From positions 200,311,600 through 200,375,599 of the forward strand of contig CM061141.1 in NCBI GenBank assembly GCA_030789695.1: a DNA stretch of 64,000 nucleotides, written 5' to 3'. The number at the start of each line of letters is the position of its first letter. Within the stretch, counting starts at the first letter, position 1. Made by a program: the position numbers and the translations under genes. Source of the stretch: Scilla litardierei (lineage: Eukaryota > Streptophyta > Magnoliopsida > Asparagales > Asparagaceae). Below, piece by piece: positions 14,323 through 60,584 of the stretch. Under the pieces are notes generated by a model. The model was not told where the DNA came from. It saw nothing but the letters and a program-made list of their open reading frames with translations, and searched no databases.

Positions 14323-14418
14323 TGTAACGACCAGTATTTTTCAACACATCAATTTACGTATGTTTAGGTATTTTCAAAATTACTTTTTAAATGTAGTCAA
14401 GAGTTTTATAACAAAACT

Positions 14419-14651
14419 GAGAGATATGAGCAGGAGGCTTCGAGAAAACTAGTGTTTTCTGAATTATATGAAGCCAGTAAGCAAACAAAAAATCCATGGG
14501 TATTTGAACCCGAATACACGGGAAAAAGCAGAATATTTGATGGAAGAATAGGAGATCCTTTTGAACAACCTGTTCTAATAGGCAAGTCCTATATCCTAAA
14601 ATTAATTCATCAAGTTGATGATAAAATCCATGGACGTTCGAGTGGGCATTC
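14419..14651 (+). pseudogene. rpoB: Plastid rpoB fragment inserted in the LTR
   Basis: About 78 codons read in one frame as the C-terminal part of the chloroplast RNA polymerase beta subunit. Recognisable words are [43 protein letters not shown] and [16 protein letters not shown]. The plastid gene would continue with a Y-A-L-V-T-Q-Q type stretch, but the match stops abruptly at about 14651. It is a nuclear copy of plastid DNA with no promoter or start, so it is not functional. It lies only in this LTR and is absent at the matching place in the 3' LTR (about 25965). Confidence 0.88.
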
Positions 14652-14936
14652 GGGAAGTACAGCTTGCGGAACTTCAATATCCACAGGCTTATTAGCTAAG
14701 TGGCAATTGTAAAAGAAAAGCTGAGAAAGGGAAACCAAACGTCGGATGCCGCACGGCGGAAACAAGAAACGGAATACCTAGGTCGCAAGGCAAGGGAGGA
14801 CGGAACCCCACTTCGACTCACCAAGGATAAGGTAAGTTGGAATTGGAATAGGTTCGGCCGCAGATCACGAAACCTTGGCGATCTTCTCTATCTAATGAAT
14901 GAGGAGTCCGTTTGGAAATCGTCCGCCCCGCGCCAC
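14652..14936. other. Unidentified second half of the organellar insert
   Basis: This is joined directly to the rpoB fragment and is absent from the 3' LTR. Its base composition is more balanced than that of the flanking LTR. An open stretch from the ATG at 14700 reads through a basic sequence, but I cannot assign it. Another organellar source, mitochondrial or a distant plastid region, is plausible but not shown. Confidence 0.5.
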
Positions 14937-15599
14937 CCTTATAAAAATATTTCGAAGGACTAGACTAATTATATTGTATTTCAGTAAGTTCAGATTTCAT
15001 CAAATACTCAAAACAATTCTGATAAAAATTCATTTTCAATTATTACTATTTTGGCTCAATGAATTAATTTTCTATACAAACATATTCAAAACGTTTTCAA
15101 ACTACTACAGTAGCATCCTATGATCATTTAGGGATCCCCACTTAATTCTGTATTTTTCTAATATCAAATCAACCTAGAACCCGCAAACCCGCTTTCTAAA
15201 TGTTTTGGCCTAAAACTAGTATCTCCATAGCTCAAATCCAAAAATGGATCTTGTATTCGTGATCCTCGTGACGATACGATCCCATGGGTATGTTTTTCGT
15301 AATTTTTCGGAGTCATATGCGAAAACGGGCTTGTATTCCTCCGTTTTCACTAATTACATTCACTAATTACATTTTTACAATTACTAAACTACTTTTACCT
15401 ACTTACTTCTACCCTAAACCCCCAACAACACCCTTAACCAGCCTCCCTTAGCTGGTGAGATCAAATAATTTGGATCTCATCGACCTACATTAAGTTATGT
15501 GTTCCCTCACTAATTACAAAAATACCATTCCCTAATCTACCCCCTCTCCATGTGTATTAACCCACACAGTATCCCTCTCCTTTCATTTTCTTTTCGTTC

Positions 15600-17771: not shown

Positions 17772-18030
17772 CTATTTGTGCTTGTGTACGTGTTATGCTA
17801 TGTATTTCCTTTCTACATCTCCTTTCAGTACTTTTCCTTTTTATGTATTTGTGTGTGTGTGTGTGTTGCTGCTTGTTTGTACTTTTATTTGGACTGTAAT
17901 AATGTCTGTACGCTGGTTGAGTGTTTGGTACATCTCTGAGTTGTGGGTATACTGATTTCACTGGTAAACTGCAAGACCTGCAAATAAATCAAATAAGTAA
18001 CTGGCCTCCGAGAGCGGGTCGTTACAAGTT

Positions 18031-18049
18031 TGGTGGCCCATGCAGGTCC
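18031..18049 (+). other. Candidate primer-binding site of Tekay-A (non-standard)
   Basis: TGGTGGCCCATGCAGGTCC begins four bases after the 5' LTR. The identical 19 bases follow the Tekay-B 5' LTR at 51340-51358. It starts with TGG as primer sites do, but is not the initiator-Met site (TGGTATCAGAGC) expected for chromoviruses. The tRNA is not identified. Confidence 0.6.
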
Positions 18050-19191
18050 GTGCAAAATACCTCGTGAACAGTATAGTTCAACCAGGATGTATCGTATACG
18101 ATACTCGACTAAGCTGACATTTTTCTATGAATGCAGGTTTGACACTCGAAAGATGGACGGGAACACCTCGGAGAGCCCCAATGGAGCTGACCAATCTGGA
18201 GCCAGCAACCAGACCAACAACGGACCTCCTCCCACGATGCATCAGATATCTGATCTCACATTGCGAGAGATGGTCCAAGCTATCAAGGGAGAACATAATC
18301 CTGTAGGAGGCATACAACTATTCCGCTCACTTCACCCAAAGACCTGGAATGGTGTGGATGGCCCGATGAAGGCCAAAGAATGGCTGGAAAGTACCGAATA
18401 TAACTTGAGAGCTGCTCAAATCGGAAAACATGCCTGGGTGGACACTGCGAAGTCCCAACTGACGGATGGAGCCAGAATCTGGTGGAACTCTGCTGAAGAT
18501 CGTCTTCAACGACCAATCGACTGGGCGACGTTCACTGAACATTTTCATACACAATATTTCTCCCCTGAAGCTCAGATGGAACTTCAAGCACAATTCGTCG
18601 GGTTAAAATAGGGTTCCATGTCAGTGGAACAGTATGATGCCCAATTGTAACGGCCGCTTTCCGACCGTGGTATTTTCAACGTGCAAACTCTTTTCGTGTG
18701 CGCATTTTTTTGGGCCTTTTCTTGGATCCGGGCCATGCGACGTGATATATCGTTGTGACCGTATGGAAGAGTAGTTATTTGTGGGATTTTTAGTGAACGT
18801 CATTTCACGGGTTGTTCTCCCACAAATCAGCTTTGATTAGAGAGATGTCGTAACTTTAGACTTCGATGCCGGATCTTTTTATCTTTAGTTCGTTTTCTGT
18901 GAATCTAACACACGATCGACCATAGTACTCCCGAGCCTCTCGTCGTCACGGTCGTCCCGATATTTTTTCGTAATTTTCGGACAACGTTAGCCCAACCTAA
19001 CCCACTAATTATCTTCGAAGCCCAATTAGCCTAATCAAAATTTTGAATTCAAACTTAACCCAAATCTTTTAGATTTCATACGTATCATGAGAGATTTCTG
19101 TGGCTACCGTCACCCAACTTAAACCCTCTTTGCACACCCCCTTTCTCACACACTCTCTCCCCCATCACTTAACCACACCCCTATTATATCC

Positions 19192-22251: not shown

Positions 22252-22327
22252 GTACGAGATATTCCACTAAGCTATACCCTCTATTATTTATAAATCGTAA
22301 GCTTAGACATGATTCTCATAACCGTAG
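22252..22327 (+). other. Predicted intron at Tekay-A gag-protease junction
   Basis: 76 bases bounded by ACAG|GTACGAG and CCGTAG|GT. Removing them joins the Gag end to the sequence leading to the protease DSG site in a single phase-1 frame. The same position and phase are seen in Tekay-B (52565-52680), although the intron sequences differ. Confidence 0.65.
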
Positions 22328-25300
22328 GTACCGTCTTAGTAGCCAATAAACCTGCCCTCACATTGTTCGACTCGGGAGCTACACATTGCCTCTTGGCGAG
22401 TTGATTCGTCCAAACACATGACATCTCTGTTGAACCTCTGACTTCCCATTGGAAGGTCGAGATCACTGGAGGTTCCCTACCGGTAACCAGCGGATGCCTC
22501 AAATGCTCTGTAGTGATTTGTGGATGAGATCTCTTTGCTGACTTCATGGTGATAGCGATGCCAACTTTTGATGATGTTCTTGGGATGGATTGGTTGGGAA
22601 CATTTCATGCCACCATTAACTGTCGTCAAAGGAGGGTAGAATTCGAAATATCCAACCATCCTAAGTTCAAATTCCTCAGCGGAAGCCGATCGGAAGGACC
22701 GGTGAAGTTTTGAGCCAGACTTTCAAAGACGGTGGCAACTGCAGCAGAAGACGAGCAAGAGAAGCCCGAGATAGTTTGAGAATTATTGGATGTATTTCCA
22801 AACGACCTCTTAGGTTTGCCTCCAGATCGAGGCCTTGAATTTACCATTGATCTTATGCCAGGTGCACAACCAGTATCCAAGGGACCCTATCGCATGGCAC
22901 CACTTGAGCTTGAAGAGGTTCGAGCTCAGCTGGACGACCTCATACAGAAAGGATGGATACGACCCAGTGTATCCGCATGAGGTGCTCCAGTGCTCCTCGT
23001 GAAGAAGAAGGACGGATCGCAACGCATGCGCATCGACTACCGGGAGCTGAACAAGATGACAGTGAAGAACAAGTATCCTCTGCCATGCATCGACGACCTG
23101 TTCGACCAGCTTGGAGGATCGAGCGTGTTTTCAAAGATGGACCTGAAGACTGGATATCATCAAGTGAAGGTGAAAAAGAAGGATGTCCACAAGACTGCTT
23201 TTCGGACCAGATATGGACACTACAAATTCTTGGTGATGCCATTTGGTGTGACTAATTCACCTGTTGTATTCTTGAGTCTCATGAACCAGGTCCTATACAA
23301 CCATTTGGACAAGTTCGTAGTCGTCTACATCGATGACATCCTCATCTACTAGAAGGATACTGAGGAGCACAGAGTTCACCTGAGGAAGGTCTTGGAGACG
23401 CTAAGACAACACCAATTGTATGCCAAGTACAGTAAGTGTGAGTTTTGGCTCGACAAGGTGGCTTTCTTGGGCCACATCATATCTGGAGAAGGGATATCCG
23501 TCGACCCTGAGAAGGTAGCTGCTGTTCAGAATTGGCCGGTCCCTAAGACGGTGACTGAGATTCAAGGTTTCCTGGGACTGGCTGGTTACTACAGACGATT
23601 CATCCAGGAGTTCTCGAAGATCGCAGGATCCATGACGTGATTGACGAGAAAGGACGTGGTATTCGTCTGGTCGAAGGCCTGTGAGGATGCATTCCAGGAG
23701 CTGAAGAGAAGACTGACTTCTCCCCTGATTCTGGTCATACCAGACAGAACCGAAGGGTTCGAAGTATTTTGTGACGCTTCTGGCAAAGGACTTGGGTGCG
23801 TGCTGCATCAGCATGGCCGAGTCATCGCTTATGAATCCAGGCAACTGAAGATCCATGAGAAGAACTACCTCATTCATGACTTTGAGTTGGCGGCAGTTAT
23901 ATTTGCTCTAAAGATCTGGAGGCACTTCTTGCTGGGCAAACACGTGAAGATATTCTCGGATCACACGAGTCTCAAATACCTATTCACCCAGAAGGAGCTC
24001 AACATGCGCCAACGACGATGGATCAAGCCGATGGCAGACTATGATATTGACCTTCAGTACCATCTTGGGAAGGTTAATGTCATACCGGATGCTCTGAGTA
24101 GCCTCCCTACAGTGATGACTCTCACATCACAATGGAGGCTTCGACACAAGATTCGAGCCATGGAGATGGATGTCATACTGCCTAGAGTAACGTCTTCGTT
24201 ACTCAACTTGCAGATCCAGTCTGACTTGTTGGACAAGATCAAGGCTGTCCAAGCAGGAGACGAGAAGCTGCAGAAGATCAGAGACATGGTGTTAGTAGGC
24301 CAGAGGCCGGAATTCAAGATCGATGAGGACGGATCTTTGAGATTCGACAACCGCATCTGTGTACCATCTGGAGATGTCAGGAAGCTTTATTAGAGGAAGC
24401 CCACAGCTCTCCTTATTCCATTCATCCAGGAGGTACCAAGATGTATCAGGACTTGCGACTACACTACTGGTGGCATGGGATGACGAGAAGCGTCGCACGC
24501 AGTGTGGCAAAGTGTATAGTGTGCCAACAGGTGAAGGCTGAACATCACCGGTCTGCCGGTTTGTTACAGCCTTTACCCATCCTAGAGTGGAAGTGGCAAC
24601 ACATCACGATGGACTTTGTGACAGGACTGCCCAAGGGCACGAAGCACAATGATGCCGTCTGGGTGATCGTTGATCGATTGACCAAGTCAGTACACTTTAT
24701 TCCTTTCAGAGTGGCCCGTCGACCGAGGTGCTTGCCAAGAAGTATATGGAGGAGATCGTGAAGCTGCATGGTGTCCCTGTCAGTATTATTTCAGACAGAG
24801 ACACTCGATTCACGTCTCACTTTTGGAAGCGCTTGGAGGAGTGTCTGGGGACCCGCTTAAGCTTCAGTACAGCTTATCATCCTCAGACCTAAGGCCAATC
24901 AGAACACACCATTCAGATCCTGGAGGACATGTTGCGTGCGTGTATGCCGGACTTCAAGGGATCTTGGGAGGACCATCTGCATCTCGGAGTTTTCTCACAA
25001 CAACAGCTACCAGGCCAGCATCGGTATGGCGCCTGTTGCAGCGCTATATGGCAGGAAATGTCGTTCCCCCTTGAGCTGGGACGGCGTTGGCGATCGAGAG
25101 CTCATTGGTCCGGATTTGATTGTAGAAGCAGTGGAAGTACTTCGGACCATCAGAGAGAAGCTATAGTTGGCGCAGGATCGATACAACCATTGGGCAGATG
25201 CAAAGCACCAACATTTGGAGTTCCAGCCTGGCGACCATGTATTTTTGAAGATCTCATCGAATCGTGGGATGATTCGCTTTGGACGAAGAGGGAAGCTCAG

Positions 25301-48356: not shown

Positions 48357-48499
48357 ATGCGCAGGAGTTCAAGGAGTCTCGACGACTTGATTCCTGTTGA
48401 TCCGGAGATAAACGCCTCCCTGAGGCGTCTGGCCGCAGAGAAGAGAAGAATAGAAGAGCCTGAAACCATAGGGGAGAACACCCCACCTCACAAGTCCCT
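48357..48499 (+). pseudogene. gag: Ath-D gag, N-terminal part
   Basis: It starts at the ATG at 48357 (MRRSSRSLDDLIPVD) and runs without stops to the Tekay-B insertion. The same frame is picked up at 58949, with LEYSMPSIEST soon after. The last bases (TCCCT, 48495-48499) are the left Tekay-B target. Confidence 0.78.
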
Positions 48500-49084
48500 T
48501 GTAACGGTACGTTTTCGTTGTACTTCGTTCGTGCACGTGCTTTTGGCCGTGCACGTGTTTATTCTAGACTTTGTTTGATTTTGAATGCTTTTGTGTGTTA
48601 TGCCGTTGCGAACGTCTCTGAGAGTATTAAATAGTGGCACTATCTTGGAACGACACTTCTCGAGTCGTTTTCCCACAATTTGAACTCACTCGATGAGACG
48701 TGACGACTTTCACTTTTGACGGGAGACGTTTCTATTTTTAGTTTCGTCGTCCGACGTCGAATTTGAGATCCGTCTTCTTAGTTAGCTCACATTCGTCGCC
48801 ACGATCACCACAATATTTATTTTATAATTTTTGGAGTTTATTTGACCACTTTTATAATTTTTACAAGTTTTATATTATTTTTAATAATTTATTTATTAAG
48901 TATTTTCGGCCAAATAAAATTTATTTGAGTTTAAAACGTTTTAAAGAATTTTTGAGCCAATTTCCAGCTCATTTGGACCAGGTCAAATCCTAGATTGGGT
49001 TGGAGAAGTTTAAATTCAAATTTCAAATCTTTTTGAATTCTAATCCTATTAGATTTAGCCCTAGACCAAGTCAACCCACCTATA

Positions 49085-49092
49085 CTATATAA
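49085..49092 (+). promoter_or_regulatory. Tekay-B 5' LTR TATA box
   Basis: CTATATAA. Transcription would begin about 30 bases on, near 49120. The 3' LTR copy is at 56704-56711. Confidence 0.75.
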
Positions 49093-49158
49093 GCAACCCC
49101 TAGCAAGTCCTATTTTCCAAAGAAATTAGCCCTAGCCTCTTCCAAACTCTTTTTGGAC

Positions 49159-49179
49159 GTTGCGACGAATCGTCGCAAC
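49159..49179. repeat. Perfect 10-bp hairpin at the start of the Tekay-B leader
   Basis: GTTGCGACGA and its exact reverse complement are separated by one A, and followed by another GTTGCGACG. It lies about 40 bases after the expected transcription start. The copy in the 3' LTR is at 56778-56798. Confidence 0.9.
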
Positions 49180-49189
49180 GTTGCGACGT

Positions 49190-49945
49190 TCAGAACCCCG
49201 CACGACCGAAGGAAAACCCGCCGTTCCCCCGCCCTGACCGGTCGCCCCGCCCGCACCCATCGCCGCCCGCTCCGCATCGCTCCGCACCGCTCTGTCCCCT
49301 CGGTCTGACCGAGGGATTGGCCCGCATCCAAGAAGCCCGCATCGCAGCACAGCTCCGCACCGTCGCCCGCTTGTCGCCCCGCTCCGCAGCCCGCACGACC
49401 GACAGATCCCCTCGCCCCCGCCCGCTGTGACCGAGCGCCCGAGCGCTGCAGCGTTGCAACGCTGTCCCGCCCGCTTCCAAGCGCCTGACCGAGGCCTCCA
49501 CCGTGTCTGACCGAGGGAAACGACCGCCCCCGCTGCTGTGACCGACCCCCAACGTTGCAACAGCGCCGCCCCCGTGTCTGACCGAGCCAAGTCCCCGCAC
49601 CGAGGCTGTACGACCGACGGCCACTTGTCGCAACCCCGCATCCGTCGCACCGCTTGCCTCCGTGGGCCCCCCAAGTTCTCCAGAGGTATTGTGGGTTCCC
49701 CAGAGGTCCCTAGGACTACTGTGGGCCCCACTTTGGTACGTTCTCTTCGACGACTTGCCGCGTACGACGTCGTCGCACGTCGTAGCCCGTCGTCGCACAT
49801 ACGAGCTTAGGAATCTGGAATCGTCGCCCGGGATATTTTCTCTGAATTTCCAGCGAGGAATCTAATTGGAATCTGGACTTGGAGCGCGATCTTATTATTC
49901 CAACCCCCGGCGTCGCTACCCGACGCCGGTGTAGCTCTCGCGTCG
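49190..49945. other. GC-rich, stop-poor island of the Tekay-B LTR
   Basis: A CpG-rich leader with repeated TGACCGAG words (at least six). Long open frames occur on the minus strand (222 and 202 codons, overlapping) and on the plus strand. They are identical in both LTRs only because the LTRs are. Coding is not shown. Confidence 0.5.
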
Positions 49946-50879
49946 TGTTGAGGTAACGTTTTGCACCCCTAGGACCCCCCAACCCAATTGCATGCTAATA
50001 AAGACTAAAAATCAGTATTTTAAAGTATTTTAAATGTTTTAGCAATCACTAATCAGGATTAATAAAACGGATGTAGGCCGGTGGACTTGTGCACGTAGGA
50101 ATCGTGACTTTGGACTCGTTGGACGGTGTTTTCTTGACGTGATAGTTGCAGGCAAGTGAAACTTGCCAACTTTTGTGTAGGGCCATGTTTTTAGGCCACT
50201 TACTTGCTTTTAGCGTAAAAGAGACTAGTCAGTGAAATGATAGCTGGCTAGACGCCTATTTGATCTAGTTTGACAACGAAACTAGATCCGTCACCTAAAT
50301 GATCTAGCTTGACAACGAAGCTAGATCCAAACATTAAACTTGTCATTCATGCATGCTAAACTGTCACGTTTACTTTTCTTACTTGTACGCTTTACTACTT
50401 GCCATACCATGTCATCCATGCATTGATTGTTGCATCGTAGCACACGCTACAATACTTGTCCTTGTACTACCTGTCCGGCTAGGTGCACCCCTACGCCATA
50501 CTTGTTTACACACTTCCTGGCTCGTGGTCCAGAAGCGGGCCTCATGTGTTGGCCAGAAACCAATGCCCGATACACGTGGAGGGGTAGGGATAAACGGTTA
50601 CTTGAGCTTAGGAGTTGGCCCGTACAGCCACTCTAGCCAAAGGACGGAATCTCTGTGCACGAGGTGCTTACTTTACTTGTCGTGTTCTTGTCTTGTGAAT
50701 GTCATGCCATGCTCGTACCTTACTTTACTTTCTTTACCTGTTGTACTCATACTTTAAACTGCCATGTCATCGCATTCATGCTAGAACTGCTAGGTTGCTT
50801 TACTTTTACCACCTTTCAGTTTCACTTGCACAAGTCTTCCAGACTTGCTGACATGTGCCCCTTTCTCTTTGGGTGCCAC

Positions 50880-50987
50880 ATGTTAGACCCTGAGCCAGAG
50901 ACAGTTGCTGAGGACGAGGTGTTTGCTGACGCTGAGCCCGAGCCTACGTTCGTAGAGGAGTTCGAGGACACCGGAGACCAGTCTTAG
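50880..50987 (+). CDS. Acidic 35-residue micro-ORF in Tekay-B 5' LTR
   Basis: ATG to TAG. It encodes a Glu/Asp/Pro-rich peptide starting MLDPEPETVAEDE and ending EFEDTGDQS. It can be extended upstream to an ATG at 50655. The position is equivalent to the acidic frames of Tekay-A and both solo LTRs. An identical copy is at 58499-58606. Its function is unknown. Confidence 0.5.
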   Translation: MLDPEPETVAEDEVFADAEPEPTFVEEFEDTGDQS

Positions 50988-51339
50988 AGACTGATTTTAC
51001 TTGCTTTTGCTTTAGGTTGCTGTTAGATGTCGGTGCTTGCACCTTTTCTTTATTTTCGTACTTTGTACTTTTGTTGGCCATGCTAGGCCTCTTTTAGACT
51101 CTCTTATTTGTAGCCTGGTGGCTTTTCTGCGTTGTTGAGATTTATTATTATGGATATTCTGAGATGTTCTTTTTGTCTCTTTCGATATTATTATCTTTGT
51201 TTCGTTTCACGTTGCAAGGACCTGCAGTTTAAAGTGATTGACGCTTATCGGACTTGCGGCTTTGTAGCTTCAAGTCTGAGCGGACCTTCTCACGCTTCGC
51301 CTCCACGTTTTTGGGAAGCGGGGCGTGACAGGTTTTTGT

Positions 51340-51358
51340 TGGTGGCCCATGCAGGTCC
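51340..51358 (+). other. Candidate primer-binding site of Tekay-B (non-standard)
   Basis: TGGTGGCCCATGCAGGTCC lies nine bases after the LTR and is identical to the Tekay-A site. It is kept although the neighbouring bases of the two elements differ. Confidence 0.62.
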
Positions 51359-51480
51359 TCTTCTTGCGATTGCGAACTAACGGAACAACGATAATTAACG
51401 GAATATCCATTAAATAAATAGCAACATCCAAGTCATTAAGCTATGAGTCTAATTTGTTTGTTCGTTTTCTATGTCATTAG

Positions 51481-52596
51481 ATGGCTGGACGACGACAGAC
51501 CCGATCTGGCAGTGGGCCCAATCGTGCTGAGGAGCCGGATAGAGAGCCCACCAATGCTGAGATCATGAGGATGATGCATCAGATGATGCAGGTACAGCAG
51601 GGCATGCTCCAGAACACTCAGAGTGCTCCTCGCCATGAGCCAGGAGCGAAGCAGTTTCGGGAGCTGGGCCCGACGTACTTTGATGGATCTGAAGGACCGA
51701 TGGCTGCAGAGGAGTGGATCAGAAACACTGAGGATAATCTGAAGATGTCGAAGGTCAACCCGGCTGGATGGGTTGATCTGGCAAAGAGGCAGCTGAAGGA
51801 TAATGCCCGAAACTGGTGGGATGCCGAGGAGGAGTTGCTGGTGAGCCCTATACCTTGGGCTACTTTCAAGGCTAGATTTGATGAGGAGTACTTTCCGAAG
51901 GCTGCTAGGAGGGAGATGGTGCAGCGCTTCATTGAGCTGAAGCAGGGGAGTCTGACGGTGGACCAGTACCACCAGGAGTTTACTAGATTGAGCCGCTTCG
52001 CGCCGAAGATGGTAGAGGATGCTGAGGAGAAGGCTCAGAAGTTTCTGCAGGGTCTTTCTCTAGACTTGCAGAGTCTGGTGTCTACGTCGGACATGGAGTC
52101 ATATCAGAAGTTATTGGTAGCTGCTCGGAGACAGGAGAAGATTGCGAAGCTGAAGAGAGGACAGATTTCTGGAGCTGGGAAGAGGCCTATGGAGCAGGTC
52201 AGAGGAGTGGTTAGGCCTGGGACTAGGCCTAATCAGACGGTGCAGTTCAAGAAGCCAGGTGTACCTCCTGAGAAGACTTGCTACTTCTGTGGCAAGACCG
52301 GGCATATCAAGGATCAGTGTAGGAAATTTCTGGGGCAGTGCCTGATTTGTGGAGATCCTACTCATGCTATGAAGGAGTGCCCTAGGTCTAAGGTACCCTG
52401 GAGGGATCCCGTTGCAGCACAGCCGTTGCAGCAGAGAGCACCTGCAGGTCGTGGAGCGCCTCTTCCTCCGCAGAAGAAGGCTTTTCAGCAGGCTGTGCAG
52501 CCGAGGAGGCAGGCTTACCTGATGACGGCAGTGGAGAACGAGGCTACGGACGAGGTTATCGCAGGTAATTCTCAAACTAGTGGTTTCCTTCCTTAG
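51481..52596 (+). CDS. gag: Tekay-B Gag
   Basis: An intact 371-codon frame that starts with the ATG directly after an acceptor-like TTTCTATGTCATTAG. It has a Met/Gln-rich N-terminus. The capsid domain shows FDGSEGPMAAEEWIRNTEDN, ARNWWDAEEE, WATFKARFDEEYFP and FAPKMVEDAEEKAQKFLQGL. There is a basic linker, then two knuckles: CYFCGKTGHIKDQC near 52278-52320 and CLICGDPTHAMKEC near 52339-52380. It forms the virus-like particle and binds RNA. The annotated end at TAG 52594-52596 lies inside a predicted intron. If that intron is spliced, the frame passes directly to protease. Unspliced RNA would give Gag alone. Confidence 0.93.
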   Translation: MAGRRQTRSGSGPNRAEEPDREPTNAEIMRMMHQMMQVQQGMLQNTQSAPRHEPGAKQFRELGPTYFDGSEGPMAAEEWIRNTEDNLKMSKVNPAGWVDLAKRQLKDNARNWWDAEEELLVSPIPWATFKARFDEEYFPKAARREMVQRFIELKQGSLTVDQYHQEFTRLSRFAPKMVEDAEEKAQKFLQGLSLDLQSLVSTSDMESYQKLLVAARRQEKIAKLKRGQISGAGKRPMEQVRGVVRPGTRPNQTVQFKKPGVPPEKTCYFCGKTGHIKDQCRKFLGQCLICGDPTHAMKECPRSKVPWRDPVAAQPLQQRAPAGRGAPLPPQKKAFQQAVQPRRQAYLMTAVENEATDEVIAGNSQTSGFLP

Positions 52597-52680
52597 ATAA
52601 TTTCGATTTTAGTTTATGTTTGAATTGATTGCATATGATTGTTTGTTAGAATAGGGCTTGATTGTTAGATTACTTGTTAG
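52565..52680 (+). other. Predicted intron at Tekay-B gag-protease junction
   Basis: 116 bases, from GCAG|GTAATTC to ACTTGTTAG|GTG, T-rich with several stops. It is phase 1. Without it, gag (frame 1) and pol (frame 3) form one frame. Position and phase match the 76-base interval in Tekay-A. Confidence 0.7.
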
Positions 52681-55100
52681 GTGTGATTTTGGTGTGCACA
52701 TTTCCTGCATGAGTCCTCTTTGACTCAGGTGCATCAATGTGCATTATCTCGCGGAGCTTCGTAGAGAAGCATTCCTTGACGACTTCCCCTCTTCCCAAGA
52801 GTTGGAACATCGTCACGGGAAATGGCGTGATCTCGGTGCATCGTGGGTGCACTTCTTGCCCTTTGGTGGTTTGTGGACACGAGCTATACGCTGACTTTAT
52901 TGTCCACGACATCATCAATTACGATGCCGTGCTCGGGATGGATTGGCTTGCGAGCTTCTATGCTACGATCGATTGTCGGAGGAAAAAGGTGGTGTTCGAG
53001 ATCCCCGGACATCCGGTGTTTGAGTTCAGTCGAGGTAGCAGTTCGCTTGGCCCTGTCCGATTTCGGGCCAATCCAGTGGAGCTTGTTGCGATGCAGATGG
53101 AGCAGGATAGACCAGCTGTGGTACGTGAATTCGACGACGTCTTCCCTGAGGAGATGTCTGGGTTGCCACCCGATCGAGCTCTCGAGTTTTCGATCGATCT
53201 TATTCCGGGAGCGCAGCCTATTTCGAAGGCACCGTATCGGATGGCTCCAGCAGAGTTGGAGGAGTTACGTAGGCAGCTGGACGAGCTTTTGCAGAAAGGA
53301 TACATCAACCCCAGTGTGTCTCCATGGGGAGCACCGGTGTTGCTGGTGAAGAAGAAGGATGGCTCGCGTCGCATGTGTGTGGATTACCGGGAGCTGAATG
53401 CTGTGACTATCAAGAATAAATATCCTTTGCCTCGGATAGATGACATCTTTGATCAGCTCGGAGGATCGAGGGTGTTCTCTAAATTGGATTTGAGAAGTGG
53501 CTACCATCAGCTCAAGGTGAAGAAGGACGACATCCCGAAGACAGCTTTCAGGACGAAGTATGGTCACTACGAGTTCGTGGTTATGCCCTTTGGCGTAACC
53601 AATGCACCCGCAGTCTTTATGAACCTGATGAATTTGGTCTTCTACGACTTTCTAGACAAGTTTGTCGTCATCTTCATTGACGATATTCTGATCTATTCAA
53701 AGTCGGAGGAAGAGCATGCCTCGCACTTGAGGACAGTGTTGGAGATCTTGAGGAAGCATCGTTTGTATGCTAAGTATTCCAAGTGCGAGTTCTGGCTGGA
53801 TAGAGTTGCTTTTCTCGGGCATGTGGTGTCTGGTGATGGAATTTCTGTGGACCCCGAGAAGATTGTGGCTATCAGAGAGTGGCCGGTTCCGCAGTCGGCG
53901 TCAGAGATTCGAAGTTTCCTTGGACTTGCAGGCTATTACCGACGTTTCATTAAGGACTTCTCTCGGATTGCTGAGCCGATGACCAGACTTACGCGGAAGG
54001 ATGTACCTTATGTTTGGTCTGATGATTGCGAGAAGGCTTTTGGTATTCTGAAGGAGAGGTTGACGACTGCCCCTGTACTTGCTGTGCCCGATCGGAGTGG
54101 AGGATTTGAGATCTTTTGCGATGCTTCTGGAAAGGGTCTTGGATGTGTGTTGCATCAGCATGGGCATGTGGTTGCGTATGCTTCTCGTCAGCTTAAGGCT
54201 CATGAGAAGAATTACCCGACACATGATTTGGAGTTGGCCGCTGTCGTGTTCGCGCTGAAAATTTGGAGGCACTTCCTGCTGAGTGAGAAAGTGAAGATCT
54301 TCACCGATCACAAAAGCTTGAAGTATATCTTTACACAGAAGGAGCTCAACATGCGACAGCGTCGATGGTTGGAGCTCATGGCAGACTACGAGATTGACTT
54401 GCAGTATCACCCTGGCAAGGTGAATGTGGTTCCGGATGCGCTGAGTAGACTTCCGGCGGTGATGATGTTGACGTCGCAGTGGAGACTGCAGCAGGACTTT
54501 TGTGAGACCGGTATCGAGATTATTCTTCCTGGAGAGGCTTCTACGATGATGAGCATGCAGATACAATCGACGATCGTGGATAGGATCAAGGCTGGACAGG
54601 CTGGAGATGCTAAGCTGGTGAAGATTCGGGAGCAGGTGGAAGTCGGTCTGCGGACTGACTTCTTGATTCACGAGGATGGTTCGTTGAGATTTGGAGCCAG
54701 GTTGTGTGTGCCAGCTGGAGATATCAGAGAGGAATTATTGGTCGAGGCACACAGTTCGCCGTATTCTGTGCATCCTGGTGGGACCAAGATGTACAAGGAT
54801 CTTCGTCTGAACTTTTGGTGGCATGGAATGAAGAGAAGTGTGGCTCGGAGTGTAGCCAAGTGTTTGGTATGCCAACAAGTAAAGGCGGAGCATCAGCGTA
54901 CGGCAGGGTTGCTACAACCGCTTCCGATTCCGGAGTGGAAGTGGCAGCACATCACTATGGATTTCGTGACTGGACTACCTCGGAGTCCGAAGCAGAACGA
55001 CGCGATTTGGGTGATCGTAGACCGATTGACCAAATCCGCTCACTTTATTCCCTTCCGAGTAGGACAGTCTACCGAGACGCTAGCGAGGAGATACATGGAG
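52681..55100 (+). CDS. pol: Tekay-B Pol, exon 1: protease, RT, RNase H, integrase N-part (one TGA)
   Basis: The protease site LFDSGAS is at about 52716-52736, preceded by an in-frame TGA at 52710-52712 where an Arg codon is usual in this family (CGA to TGA is a CpG transition). After it the frame is open. The protease flap region has GMDWLASF near 52940. RT has RMCVDYREL near 53370, [12 protein letters not shown] near 53480, MPFGVTNAP near 53585 and catalytic [10 protein letters not shown] near 53675. RNase H has [11 protein letters not shown] near 54115 and PDALSRL near 54440. The integrase zinc region HPGGTKMY ... [11 protein letters not shown] is near 54775-54890. The first catalytic Asp is in TMDFVTGLP near 54955. 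Exon 1 ends at ATGGAG|GTAAAT. Confidence 0.93.
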
Positions 55101-55171
55101 GTAAATTCGTTTACTCTCCGTTCTATTTCCTTTTTCCTAGTCTAGTTAGTGATGTAACGTGAATCGTGCAG
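55101..55171 (+). other. Predicted 71-bp intron within Tekay-B integrase
   Basis: Donor GAG|GTAAATTC, a T-rich body, a branch-like GTGATGTAAC, and acceptor GAATCGTGCAG|GAG. It is phase 0. It interrupts the integrase core between its first and second catalytic residues. Tekay-A has uninterrupted coding sequence at the same codon border (24751/24752). Confidence 0.8.
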
Positions 55172-56077
55172 GAGATCGTACGACTTCACGGAGTCCCCGT
55201 GAGTATCGTGTCGGACAGAGACACGAGATTCACATCTCAGTTTTGGCAGAGTCTGCAGAAGAGCTTGGGTACGAGTCTGAGTTTCAGCACGGCGTACCAC
55301 CCGCAGACGGATGGCCAGTCCGAGAGGACGATTCAGATTTTGGAGGATATGTTGCGAGCTTGCATGTTGGACTTTAAAGGATCTTGGGAGGATCATCTCC
55401 ATCACGTTGAGTTTGCCTACAATAACAGCTACCAGGCGAGTATTGGAATGGCGCCTTTCGCCGCGCTATATGGAAAGAAATGTCGATCGCCACTTAGCTG
55501 GGATGATGTTGGAGATCGGGGGCTGTTAGGACCGGAGATGATCGTGGAGGCCGTGGATGTTGTGAGGAATATACGAGAGAAGCTGAGGATTGCGCAGGAC
55601 CGTTTCAAGCATTGGGCGGATGCTAAACGGAGGCCTTTGGAGTTTCAGCCTGGAGATCACGTTTTTCTGAAGATTTCTCCGAACCGCGGAGTTATTCGAT
55701 TCGGGAAGAGAGGCAAGCTGAGTCCGAGGTTCATTGGACCGTTCGATGTTCTAGAGAGAGTTGGAGCTGTGGCTTATCGCTTGGCGTTGCCACCGTCGCT
55801 TGTGGGAGTTCACGACGTATTTCACGTATCTCAGTTACGCCGATACGTTAGTGATCCATCCCACGCTGTGGATTTCTCGGAGATTACGGTTCGTCCGGAT
55901 CTGTCTTATGATCAGCAGCCCGTTGAGATTCTGGATCGTCGACAGAAGCAGCTGAGGAATAAGACCTTCGACTTGGTTCGTGTGCAGTGGCGTCACGGTT
56001 CCCCTGGTGAGTCTACCTGGGAGCGTGAAGATGAGATGAGAGAGCGCTTCCCGCACCTTTTCCCGAGCAGCGCTTGA
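55172..56077 (+). CDS. pol: Tekay-B Pol, exon 2: integrase core end and chromodomain-type tail
   Basis: An open frame to TGA at 56075-56077. It has [12 protein letters not shown] near 55210 (second catalytic Asp), the Glu in [11 protein letters not shown] near 55320, [12 protein letters not shown] near 55415 and [14 protein letters not shown]. The GPY/F-type module is [10 protein letters not shown] near 55740. The end carries [28 protein letters not shown] and a chromodomain-like [19 protein letters not shown] near 55985-56040. In chromoviruses this tail helps direct insertion to marked chromatin. No damage is visible. Confidence 0.93.
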
Positions 56078-56118: not shown

Positions 56119-58948
56119 TGTAACGGTACGTTTTCGTTGTACTTCGTTCGTGCACGTGCTTTTGGCCGTGCACGTGTTTATTCTAGACTTTGTTTGATTT
56201 TGAATGCTTTTGTGTGTTATGCCGTTGCGAACGTCTCTGAGAGTATTAAATAGTGGCACTATCTTGGAACGACACTTCTCGAGTCGTTTTCCCACAATTT
56301 GAACTCACTCGATGAGACGTGACGACTTTCACTTTTGACGGGAGACGTTTCTATTTTTAGTTTCGTCGTCCGACGTCGAATTTGAGATCCGTCTTCTTAG
56401 TTAGCTCACATTCGTCGCCACGATCACCACAATATTTATTTTATAATTTTTGGAGTTTATTTGACCACTTTTATAATTTTTACAAGTTTTATATTATTTT
56501 TAATAATTAATTTATTAAGTATTTTCGGCCAAATAAAATTTATTTGAGTTTAAAACGTTTTAAAGAATTTTTGAGCCAATTTCCAGCTCATTTGGACCAG
56601 GTCAAATCCTAGATTGGGTTGGAGAAGTTTAAATTCAAATTTCAAATCTTTTTGAATTCTAATCCTATTAGATTTAGCCCTAGACCAAGTCAACCCACCT
56701 ATACTATATAAGCAACCCCTAGCAAGTCCTATTTTCCAAAGAAATTAGCCCTAGCCTCTTCCAAACTCTTTTTGGACGTTGCGACGAATCGTCGCAACGT
56801 TGCGACGTTCAGAACCCCGCACGACCGAAGGAAAACCCGCCGTTCCCCCGCCCTGACCGGTCGCCCCGCCCGCACCCATCGCCGCCCGCTCCGCATCGCT
56901 CCGCACCGCTCTGTCCCCTCGGTCTGACCGAGGGATTGGCCCGCATCCAAGAAGCCCGCATCGCAGCACAGCTCCGCACCGTCGCCCGCTTGTCGCCCCG
57001 CTCCGCAGCCCGCACGACCGACAGATCCCCTCGCCCCCGCCCGCTGTGACCGAGCGCCCGAGCGCTGCAGCGTTGCAACGCTGTCCCGCCCGCTTCCAAG
57101 CGCCTGACCGAGGCCTCCACCGTGTCTGACCGAGGGAAACGACCGCCCCCGCTGCTGTGACCGACCCCCAACGTTGCAACAGCGCCGCCCCCGTGTCTGA
57201 CCGAGCCAAGTCCCCGCACCGAGGCTGTACGACCGACGGCCACTTGTCGCAACCCCGCATCCGTCGCACCGCTTGCCTCCGTGGGCCCCCCAAGTTCTCC
57301 AGAGGTATTGTGGGTTCCCCAGAGGTCCCTAGGACTACTGTGGGCCCCACTTTGGTACGTTCTCTTCGACGACTTGCCGCGTACGACGTCGTCGCACGTC
57401 GTAGCCCGTCGTCGCACATACGAGCTTAGGAATCTGGAATCGTCGCCCGGGATATTTTCTCTGAATTTCCAGCGAGGAATCTAATTGGAATCTGGACTTG
57501 GAGCGCGATCTTATTATTCCAACCCCCGGCGTCGCTACCCGACGCCGGTGTAGCTCTCGCGTCGTGTTGAGGTAACGTTTTGCACCCCTAGGACCCCCCA
57601 ACCCAATTGCATGCTAATAAAGACTAAAAATCAGTATTTTAAAGTATTTTAAATGTTTTAGCAATCACTAATCAGGATTAATAAAACGGATGTAGGCCGG
57701 TGGACTTGTGCACGTAGGAATCGTGACTTTGGACTCGTTGGACGGTGTTTTCTTGACGTGATAGTTGCAGGCAAGTGAAACTTGCCAACTTTTGTGTAGG
57801 GCCATGTTTTTAGGCCACTTACTTGCTTTTAGCGTAAAAGAGACTAGTCAGTGAAATGATAGCTGGCTAGACGCCTATTTGATCTAGTTTGACAACGAAA
57901 CTAGATCCGTCACCTAAATGATCTAGCTTGACAACGAAGCTAGATCCAAACATTAAACTTGTCATTCATGCATGCTAAACTGTCACGTTTACTTTTCTTA
58001 CTTGTACGCTTTACTACTTGCCATACCATGTCATCCATGCATTGATTGTTGCATCGTAGCACACGCTACAATACTTGTCCTTGTACTACCTGTCCGGCTA
58101 GGTGCACCCCTACGCCATACTTGTTTACACACTTCCTGGCTCGTGGTCCAGAAGCGGGCCTCATGTGTTGGCCAGAAACCAATGCCCGATACACGTGGAG
58201 GGGTAGGGATAAACGGTTACTTGAGCTTAGGAGTTGGCCCGTACAGCCACTCTAGCCAAAGGACGGAATCTCTGTGCACGAGGTGCTTACTTTACTTGTC
58301 GTGTTCTTGTCTTGTGAATGTCATGCCATGCTCGTACCTTACTTTACTTTCTTTACCTGTTGTACTCATACTTTAAACTGCCATGTCATCGCATTCATGC
58401 TAGAACTGCTAGGTTGCTTTACTTTTACCACCTTTCAGTTTCACTTGCACAAGTCTTCCAGACTTGCTGACATGTGCCCCTTTCTCTTTGGGTGCCACAT
58501 GTTAGACCCTGAGCCAGAGACAGTTGCTGAGGACGAGGTGTTTGCTGACGCTGAGCCCGAGCCTACGTTCGTAGAGGAGTTCGAGGACACCGGAGACCAG
58601 TCTTAGAGACTGATTTTACTTGCTTTTGCTTTAGGTTGCTGTTAGATGTCGGTGCTTGCACCTTTTCTTTATTTTCGTACTTTGTACTTTTGTTGGCCAT
58701 GCTAGGCCTCTTTTAGACTCTCTTATTTGTAGCCTGGTGGCTTTTCTGCGTTGTTGAGATTTATTATTATGGATATTCTGAGATGTTCTTTTTGTCTCTT
58801 TCGCTATTATTATCTTTGTTTCGTTTCGCGTTGCAAGGACCTGCAGTTTAAAGTGATTGACGCTTATCGGACTTGCGGCTTTGTAGCTTCAAGTCTGAGC
58901 GGACCTTCTCACGCTTCGCCTCCACGTTTTTGGGAAGCGGGGCGTGAC
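56119..58948 (+). repeat. Tekay-B 3' LTR
   Basis: A near-perfect copy of the 5' LTR. Differences I see are T/A at about 48889 versus 56508, A/C at about 51185 versus 58804, and A/G at about 51210 versus 58829. It ends GGGCGTGAC without the final A. TATA is at 56704-56711 and the acidic micro-ORF at 58499-58606. Confidence 0.95.
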
Positions 58949-60584
58949 CTGCTGGAGTACTCGATGCCATCCATCGAGTCCACCTCCGCCATACGTCCTC
59001 CTGCTACTACGGCGCAAAGCTTTGAGCTTAAGCCGTCTTTGGTGACGTGGATCCGGCGGGATCAATTCTCTGGGTCACCCATGGAGAGCCCCATCGAACA
59101 TCTGGACTCCTTCCTCGAGAAATGTGACACCTTCCGGATAAATGGTTTCACAGCTGAAGCTATCCGTCTGAAGTTATCCCCCTTCTCTCTGCGTGATAAG
59201 GCCAAGCTGTGGCTTAGGGGGAAGGACCCGAATACGTTCAACACTTGGGAGAAGCTTTCAAACGCTTTTCTGACTATGTTCTTTCCTCCGGGGAAGACCA
59301 TGAAACTAAGGAGTGAGATCTCCTCCTTCTCCCAAGCCAGCCACGAGTCCCTGTAAGAAGCTTGGACAAGATTTAAAGAGATGCAGCGAAGATGCCCTCA
59401 TCACGAGCTTCCCAAGTGGAAGATAATTAATCTGTTCTACAATGGATTGAGGGACGATTTAAAATCTTCGATGGACATCACGGCTTGGGGGTCCTTCATG
59501 TCCATAAGTGAAGAAGATGCCTGGAACATATTAGAAAATATGGCATCGAACAATGAGCGGTGGTGTGACGAGAGAGCCACACCTAGATCTGGGGGTATCC
59601 ACAGGGTCGAGGACGTCGATAAATTATCCAGCAAGTTTGACTTGCTGTCGACCCAGATCTCAGCACTGATGGTAGGAACCGGTGGTGCCGGTACACAACA
59701 TATTGCGGCGGTGGAATCCGAAGTCATTGGAGACTTCGAGGCTGGTGATATCTCACCACCATTGGACCAAGCGAGCGCACTATTCTACAATCCTACAGAA
59801 AACGCGCCGTACCCTCCACGGACTAGCTCCAACCCGGCCTACTCTCCAAACCACCGGAACCATCCCAATCTTAGCTACCGGGCACCGTATCAGCAGCCGC
59901 CTCCTCAGCAGCAGCAACAACAGATATATCAGCCGGCTAGGCCTCAGCAACAGTAGTTTCAGCCGCAGCAGCAATTTCCACAACAGCGGCCTCCACAATA
60001 GTATCAGTAGTACCCCCCCAAGAAACCAGCAGCCCATACAACAGCAACAGCAATATGGCCAGCAGAGGGCCATCTCTCCGGTTGAGTCCCTCTTGACTCA
60101 ATACATTACCAACCAAGAGAAGATAAATTTGAAGCTGAAAATGGGGCAGAGGGCTCTCACGGACCAAGTAACCCAGCTGGGGTTACAAGTGTCGAATCTT
60201 CAAAGGTCGCAAAATCTATTGCCGCCACAACCGAAAGTGAACCCGAGGGGAGCAAACCAAACTTTGGCACTCACGCACGAGCATGCGAATGTGTCCCCTA
60301 TCGTTTTGAGAAGCGGAACACAAATCCCCACGAGAGTGCCCGCCAAGGAACCGGAAGCACCGTTGGTAGTAGAGCGACCAATTGAAAAATTGAATGACGA
60401 CGATGCATCGTCGCCAAAGCCAACGACTCCCGATCGAGTTCCTGAAGAGGAGAAGAAGAAGAACGAGGAAGGGAACCTCAAAGTATTCAAGCCCGTTGTG
60501 CCCTTTCCACAATGGCTTGCCCAAGCCAATATTGATGAAAAGTATGGCAAATTCTTTGCCATGGTCAAGGATCTAAGCTTTTAA
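58949..60584 (+). pseudogene. gag: Ath-D gag, main part
   Basis: It continues the frame left at 48499. The Athila/Tat Gag core has HLDSFLEKCDTFRINGFT, AIRLKLSPFSLRDKAKLWL and NTWEKLSNAFLTMFFPPGKT, and after a TAA (59354-59356) EAWTRFKEMQRRCPHHELP and FYNGLRDDLKSSMD. A Gln/Pro-rich tract follows (59880-60010) with three TAG stops at 59954, 59999 and 60008, each where CAG is expected. A frameshift near 60010 leads to a second frame with VPFPQWLAQANIDEKYGKFF near 60500, then TAA at 60582-60584. No zinc knuckle is seen. It is broken in at least six places. Confidence 0.88.

Follow-up and report, generated by a model that had tools for sequence, protein, structure and literature searches.

Intron-like intervals at the gag-protease junction and within the integrase of Tekay-like retrotransposons in Scilla litardierei

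Retroelements need Gag in excess of Pol, and two elements in the genome of Scilla litardierei raise the question of whether host splicing could supply it. The window, that is, the whole stretch analysed here, comprises 64,000 nt of the forward strand (GCA_030789695.1, contig CM061141.1, 200,311,600–200,375,599; locus label G000:C12:200311600-200375599), and the 3.68-Gb assembly was searched for further copies. In both elements, Tekay-B and Tekay-A, an intron-like interval (interval 1) separates gag from protease, and Tekay-B carries another (interval 2) inside its integrase. From the sequence we infer that interval 1 is very probably a U-rich spliceosomal intron of a Tekay-like clade, whose partial splicing would divide Gag from Gag-Pol, and that interval 2 is a second intron. 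Unspliced RNA would then be both genome and Gag message, with Gag terminating at a stop codon that lies inside the intron or immediately beyond it, and host splicing of part of the RNA would fuse gag to pol and yield Gag-Pol. Interval 2 would be a second, probably more recent, polymorphic intron, and a working integrase in copies that bear it would also need its removal. If true, such a splice switch would give a clear and testable answer to the need for Gag excess in Tekay-like elements.

Two elements and the gag-protease junction

Tekay-B has the domain order gag-protease-RT-RNase H-integrase between its LTRs, as judged from Pfam domains and LTR self-alignment (Table 1). Integrase_H2C2 and SH3_Tf2-1 lie above their curated cut-offs and rve below its own, and the Chromo match (residues 254–299 of the last ORF) reaches 22.4 bits against a curated cut-off of 25.1. 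Tekay-B, a very abundant element, amplified recently, the LTRs of the window copy being nearly identical; Tekay-A, whose LTR regions are 92.6% identical and which contains many stops, is older. The clade name, which we take over from the initial annotation, agrees with motifs known for Tekay, and the protease tree described below contains no named reference Tekay sequence. The sequences flanking Tekay-B (48490–48499 and 58949–58965) contain no clear target-site duplication despite the near-identical LTRs. The Tekay-A 5' LTR at 14323–14937 apparently has around 500 bases more than the 3' LTR, as seen from shifted repeat spacings, and both elements have a TTGGTGGCCCATGCAGGTCC-like sequence immediately internal to the 5' LTR (51330–51360 in B, 18027–18060 in A).

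Table 1 Features of the two elements, in window coordinates
Feature	Position	Strand	Evidence
Tekay-B 5' LTR	48500–51329	+	Self-alignment, 2830 bp, 99.89% identity to 3' copy
Tekay-B 3' LTR	56119–58948	+	Self-alignment
Tekay-B gag frame, ending within interval 1; coding exon to 52564	51481–52596	+	ORF list; Pfam Retrotrans_gag, Ty3_capsid, zf-CCHC
Tekay-B interval 1, intron-like, 116 nt, GT..AG, phase 1, 70.7% AT, stops in all frames	52565–52680	+	Sequence and copies
TAG ending Tekay-B Gag on unspliced RNA	52594–52596	+	Found in 30/30 copies read
Tekay-B Pol coding: protease, RT, RNase H, integrase start	52681–55100	+	ORF 52713–55145; Pfam RVP_2, RVT_1, RT_RNaseH, Integrase_H2C2
In-frame stop in the window copy of Tekay-B, just before protease motif	52710–52712	+	1/30 copies read
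Tekay-B interval 2, intron-like, 71 nt, GT..AG, phase 0, inside integrase	55101–55171	+	Exactly absent in L091
Tekay-B remaining integrase and chromodomain-like tail	55172–56077	+	ORF 55163–56077; Pfam
Tekay-A interval 1, 76 nt, GT..AG, codon and phase as in B, 65.8% AT	22252–22327	+	Sequence; 30 copies
Tekay-A empty site homologous to interval 2 (ATGGAG then directly GAGATC)	24751–24752	+	Direct reading

In Tekay-B the exon ends in GTTATCGCA G|GTAATT and, 116 nt on, the interval gives way to protease coding at ACTTGTTAG|GTGTGATT, so that the borders are splice-like (donor CAG|GTAATT, acceptor TTGTTAG|GTGTG). Counted in the gag frame starting at 51481, position 52565 is the second base of its codon, which makes the interval phase 1; that frame closes at the TAG within it, where all three frames have stops. 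The Tekay-A interval (ATCACA G|GTACGA...CCGTAG|GTACC) sits at the identical codon and phase, and its gag frame has no stop inside and closes just beyond, at 22347–22349. Omitting the interval puts gag and protease in one frame in both elements, by frame arithmetic alone. The initial annotation had described the extent, borders and phase of both intervals, the closure of the B gag frame and the rejoining of protease to gag in B, and its coordinates are exact.

The donor consensus is MAG|GTAAGT. Scored against it, the B donor is the sole site among 291 GTs in the B coding stretch to match at 8 or more of nine positions, and the A donor matches at seven, a level reached by 5 of 212 GT sites including itself. 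No equal-length segment in the coding stretch of either element is as AT-rich as its interval 1 (0/4249 in B, 0/3848 in A, segments overlapping the interval excluded). T content is 46.6% in B, versus 21.0 and 31.0% in the flanks, and 32.9% in A, versus 16.7 and 30.3%; as far as base composition tells, this T- and AT-rich make-up is that of plant introns.

The gag and pol frames of B do not overlap, given that gag ends at 52596 and pol opens only past a stop at 52659–52661, and the first in-frame AUG of B pol lies past the protease DSG in 30/30 copies. Hence neither simple frameshifting nor re-initiation at an AUG would yield intact Pol. We rejected re-initiation as a source of B Pol, since the sole AUG near the protease start follows DSG and would give no intact protease.

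Interval 1 across copies, families and relatives

Thirty B copies, the window copy included, were read (30 of 40 scored, from 4122 first-look candidates, with a query that included the interval), and in 30/30 the interval measures 116 nt, has GT and AG at its ends and contains the gag-frame stop. An interval-free test used two queries that omit interval 1, one from the gag tail (150 of 38946 candidates scored) and one from protease (150 of 42650). The two lists have 46 B copies in common, with a match distance of 145–152 in 46/46, judged by distance only with the letters unread; presence of the interval predicts 149, and its absence 33. Among the 150 scored gag frames, many of them shortened by other damage, the longest reaches 394 aa and none is long enough to enter pol. 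Mostly uninterrupted gag-pol frames, the outcome that the initial annotation had named beforehand as counting against an intron, are therefore not what these samples contain. On that same count (0/150), the single continuous gag-pol ORF described for beet Tekay elements is absent, and we take its absence as a new trait rather than as a clade-defining feature. No B copy without interval 1, and hence no spliced retrocopy for it, was seen among the 30 copies read and the 46 placed by distance, a point against the intron reading. The idea that interval 1 is a private defect of the window copy was rejected on the same counts.

A stop that is indeed private lies at 52710–52712, where the 29 other B copies read carry a sense codon; the initial annotation had overlooked it. 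Even with splicing, the window copy would be unable to produce full-length Gag-Pol, which counts against the intron reading, but this stop is a defect of one copy and does not define the B family. Thirty A copies were also read, again with the window copy (30 of 40 scored, from 2277 candidates): GT is present in 30/30 and AG in 24/30, and the length is 76 nt in 29 and 77 in one. The loss of the acceptor AG from six of these copies counts against the intron reading.

A genome search with Pfam RVP_2 (150 of 47147 candidates scored, classes counted by hand from match starts) extended the comparison to other families. In 48 of the 150 the match starts at profile positions 3–9, upstream of the junction and in the protease frame, with open frames of up to 1531 aa; in 101 it starts at positions 20–23, right at the junction, and one match starts at 13. 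We extracted 30 loci of the first class, and their translations continue through the junction; one family reads VVSG|NISFSSTKARVLFDSGAS there, and locus L090 reads VISG|VVLIATYPALTLFDSGAT. The latter, read as VISG|VVLI, is a natural empty site for interval 1 in a decayed copy with a frameshift upstream. Two of the 101 junctions of the second class were read, an 880-aa open frame and an unusual match range being the grounds for choosing them. An interval is present in each: L092, representing family E, has 97 nt (CAG|GTATTACC..TTCTAG|GT), and L093, the single copy of family F, has 92 nt (CAT|GTAATG..ACTAG|GT). The altered base preceding the donor in F counts against the intron reading.

Four families thus carry an interval at one codon and phase, with lengths of 76 (A), 116 (B), 97 (E) and 92 nt (F), an AT content of 66–73%, and GT at the start and TAG at the end in each. 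As in U2-type introns, GT..AG ends, U- and AT-richness and a frame restored on excision come together, the ends and the restored frame in 4/4 families. In A, Gag closes just past the interval, and in the other three families inside it. The lengths are 1, 2, 1 and 2 modulo 3, so a single frameshift direction cannot serve the four families, and excision restores the frame in each.

The initial annotation had also argued that borders are kept between A and B while the interior diverges. This stands in part, in that GT and TAG are found in 4/4 families and the interiors can be aligned in one of six pairs, E vs F, where local similarity exceeds chance (0/1000 shuffles as high, compared with 50 for A vs F and 141–498 for the other four pairs). 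It is weakened by the protease start, where nucleotide similarity between A and B is itself no better than shuffled (57 of 120). The first 15 nt of the interval agree at 11–12 positions among B, E and F and at 6–8 with A, and the last 15 nt at 4–11 among families. We read the comparison of borders with interiors as support for an intron, not as proof.

Tekay-like relatives, including families of this genome, appear from their translations to read straight through the junction. Among 120 plant proteins listed, all of them predictions from which an intron may have been removed and many without the protease-start motif, those whose protease start was found by motif search, for example from Cucumis, Rubroshorea and Dioscorea, read straight through and served as outgroups. 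P0121, a JGI protein 52% identical to B Gag, ends nine residues past VITG; P0006, from ENA and 64% identical in the protease-RT region, has around 25 additional residues at the junction, and its residues preceding VITG are not Gag-like in that frame. A further protein search returned only P0006, P0005 and P0008, and no relative was found among viral contigs. A protease tree was built from 25 rows, a 26th sequence, from Cannabis, being too short to include. In it A, B, P0006, L090 and the Asparagus model P0005 group together with support 98/99, separate from the straight-through rows. Scoring L090 and P0005 as without the interval gives three changes of the interval label on this tree, not one; 1/500 shuffles gave as few changes, a result that near-copies favour. 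An intron may have been taken out of P0005, which is a gene model.

These frames bear on a different explanation, in which gag and pol lie in different frames, programmed ribosomal frameshifting or stop readthrough across the interval produces Pol, and the interval encodes a linker. Most gypsy elements use +1 frameshifting, according to PMC3735527, and Tekay-A alone would also fit such a scheme, given that no stop interrupts its gag frame within the interval, nor its pol frame in many copies. Family E is open in the pol frame, and P0006 reads through in frame. However, the frames of B do not overlap, no single direction fits the lengths in four families, and both the GT..TAG borders and the U-richness would go unexplained, and we regard frameshifting or readthrough as quite improbable.

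For the intron reading, selection on the copies offers a further line of evidence. Among all pairings of the 30 B copies, we took the 12 that diverge most, in which individual copies recur: pN is 0.013–0.032 vs a pS of 0.103–0.138 in gag, and 0.009–0.021 vs 0.138–0.175 in protease-RT up to 54256. Both regions of family B are under strong purifying selection. Between two chosen groups of B copies (five vs 25), interval 1 diverges by 0.0495, against fourfold-site values of 0.027 and 0.067 in the exon stretches that adjoin it in the same query, and of 0.079 across whole gag and 0.098 across whole protease-RT. It drifts at approximately or somewhat below the silent rate. Neutral drift alone does not account for its position below the whole-region values, a point against the intron reading; the interval-including query may be the cause. 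Long open pol stretches are common, 79 of the 150 scored frames having at least 800 aa.

Selected coding around a drifting interval speaks against a dead family riding on others, and thereby against the proposal that the interval is a disabling insertion in a master copy and that B is non-autonomous, its mobilisation depending in trans on Tekay-like families whose gag-pol frame is unbroken. The genome does contain several families with continuous frames, the longest being those of 1531 aa, B amplified recently, and its pol is broken by two intervals. Set against this are the purifying selection on gag and protease-RT between B copies, the many long pol frames and the recurrence of the interval position in four families, and we think mobilisation in trans just as improbable as frameshifting.

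Interval 2 in the Tekay-B integrase

The pol frame of B stops again at 55143–55145, and integrase resumes past 55171. The 71 nt in between (GAG|GTAAAT..GTGCAG|GAG, phase 0) have a T content of 42.3% vs 22.7 and 24.7% in the flanks, and look like another intron, one overlooked in the initial annotation. In the protease search (150 scored), 79 open pol frames reach 800 aa or more. Of these, 78 fall within 800–834 aa, 48 of them at exactly 827, which is roughly the length expected if the interval-2 stop ends the frame. The remaining copy, L091, has a pol frame of 1114 aa, the length expected without interval 2. Over the 150 letters read it matches the B flanks at 146/150 positions, and the 71 nt are absent exactly at the splice borders; four placements of this empty site fit, one of which is GT..AG. 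When L091 was used as query, 40/40 scored copies (of 2398 candidates, L091 included) aligned across all 150 letters. B copies without interval 2 are thus common, at least 40 by alignment, and we gave up the idea that L091 is a lone spliced retrocopy.

Six copies lacking interval 2, including L091, also occur in the gag list at distances of 2827–2834, where 2828 is expected with interval 1, and so keep interval 1 as far as distance tells. The protease list contains three of the copies lacking interval 2: two match at the expected distance of 2316, and the third, at 1074, must carry a deletion. The RVP_2 search table (150 scored) also includes 20 pol frames that measure 832 aa and three that measure 1115 aa, counted by hand with the junctions unread, which may represent the states with and without interval 2 in a sister subfamily.

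The interval-2 site is empty in Tekay-A and in P0006, which favours a recent gain. The six copies lacking it are 94–98% like the window copy in the gag tail, and copies with pol frames of interval-2 length go down to 92% or less; losses or recombination are therefore also possible, and the copies without interval 2 could possibly be spliced retrocopies rather than copies that predate the gain. If the intron reading is true, interval 2 would record either the gain of an intron by a mobile element or a return of spliced RNA, as a DNA copy, to the genome.

Known systems and meaning

Introns in plant LTR elements are already known, and the site at the gag-protease junction in Tekay would be the new part. 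Ogre, a plant Ty3/gypsy element of the Tat lineage, has a facultative intron between GAG-PROT and RT, its RNA is partly spliced, and splicing opens the downstream polyprotein (PMC6317226). Tekay-B and Tekay-A would resemble it in having a facultative intron between coding parts whose splicing gives access to a downstream polyprotein. However, Ogre is not a chromovirus, and interval 1, at 76–116 nt, lies between gag and protease and so precedes the protease rather than following it; the second interval in the Tekay-B integrase is another difference. In BARE1 of barley (Ty1/copia) and EVADE of Arabidopsis a facultative intron splits the RNA between Gag and Gag-Pol, and the BARE1 intron is small (104 nt), U-rich and located in the gag part (PMC3735527 and PMC12786077). 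There, splicing of a single ORF yields the Gag-only RNA, whereas in the Tekay-like elements unspliced RNA would give Gag and spliced RNA Gag-Pol.

CRR is a rice chromovirus of the CRM clade. It is a gypsy element with spliced transcripts, in which rt is spliced out and two ORFs result (PMC3735527); its splicing does not fuse gag to pol, as that of the Tekay-like elements would. Bongo and SCHMIDT (Bongo3), of the Tekay clade in Beta vulgaris, share the domain order of Tekay-B and, by the naming in the initial annotation, its clade. They have a continuous single gag-pol ORF (PMC3605345), and SCHMIDT is without introns (PMC2669250), in contrast to the interrupted frame of Tekay-B. The closest named proteins with both gag and protease-RT are Asparagus officinalis LOC109833769 and LOC109838678, both gene models only, at 69% in the protease-RT region across 100% and 88% of it, respectively; LOC109833769 falls in the same protease-tree clade as Tekay-A and Tekay-B. 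No description of an intron at the gag-protease junction in Tekay was found in the full-text literature searched, which was available in part and leaves most subscription journals outside.

Splicing might also occur incidentally, or serve RNA export, silencing or the lowering of Pol instead of the Gag:Pol ratio, a role that we infer only, and interval 2 has no obvious part in setting that ratio. Yet in each of the four families read, Gag from unspliced RNA would terminate within the interval or immediately after it, and stops inside the interval close the pol frame of B and F. We consider an incidental role less probable again than either frameshifting or mobilisation in trans.

If the intron switch is real, a wider reading follows: a chromovirus clade would have gained an intron that splits one RNA into Gag/genome and Gag-Pol messages and would have kept it over very numerous cycles of reverse transcription, with only unspliced RNA packaged, and the second, polymorphic intron in integrase would mark intron gain or spliced RNA copied back. 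We hold this tentatively, as plausible though short of probable. Reverse transcription of spliced RNA should erase retroelement introns, so the retention of interval 1 in all copies checked, beside a polymorphic interval 2, makes the packaging of unspliced RNA testable, and it does the same directly for intron gain and loss.

The arrangement of copies along the assembly is a separate matter. L032 (G000:C12:200395525-200398805) nearly copies the window Tekay-A region, with 3257/3281 positions identical, and is found 63,266 bases downstream of it on one contig, an arrangement suggestive of local duplication. Seven B matches lacking interval 2 occur 132–187 kb apart along one contig (G000:C5816), perhaps as a large repeated block. 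B-family matches also lie approximately 7.61–7.62 kb apart at G000:C5703:6944 and 14568, at C4789:163, 7773 and 15383, and at C12:195510019 and 195517632. This spacing is close to the combined length of an LTR and the internal region, 7619 in the window, and suggests head-to-tail arrays with common LTRs.
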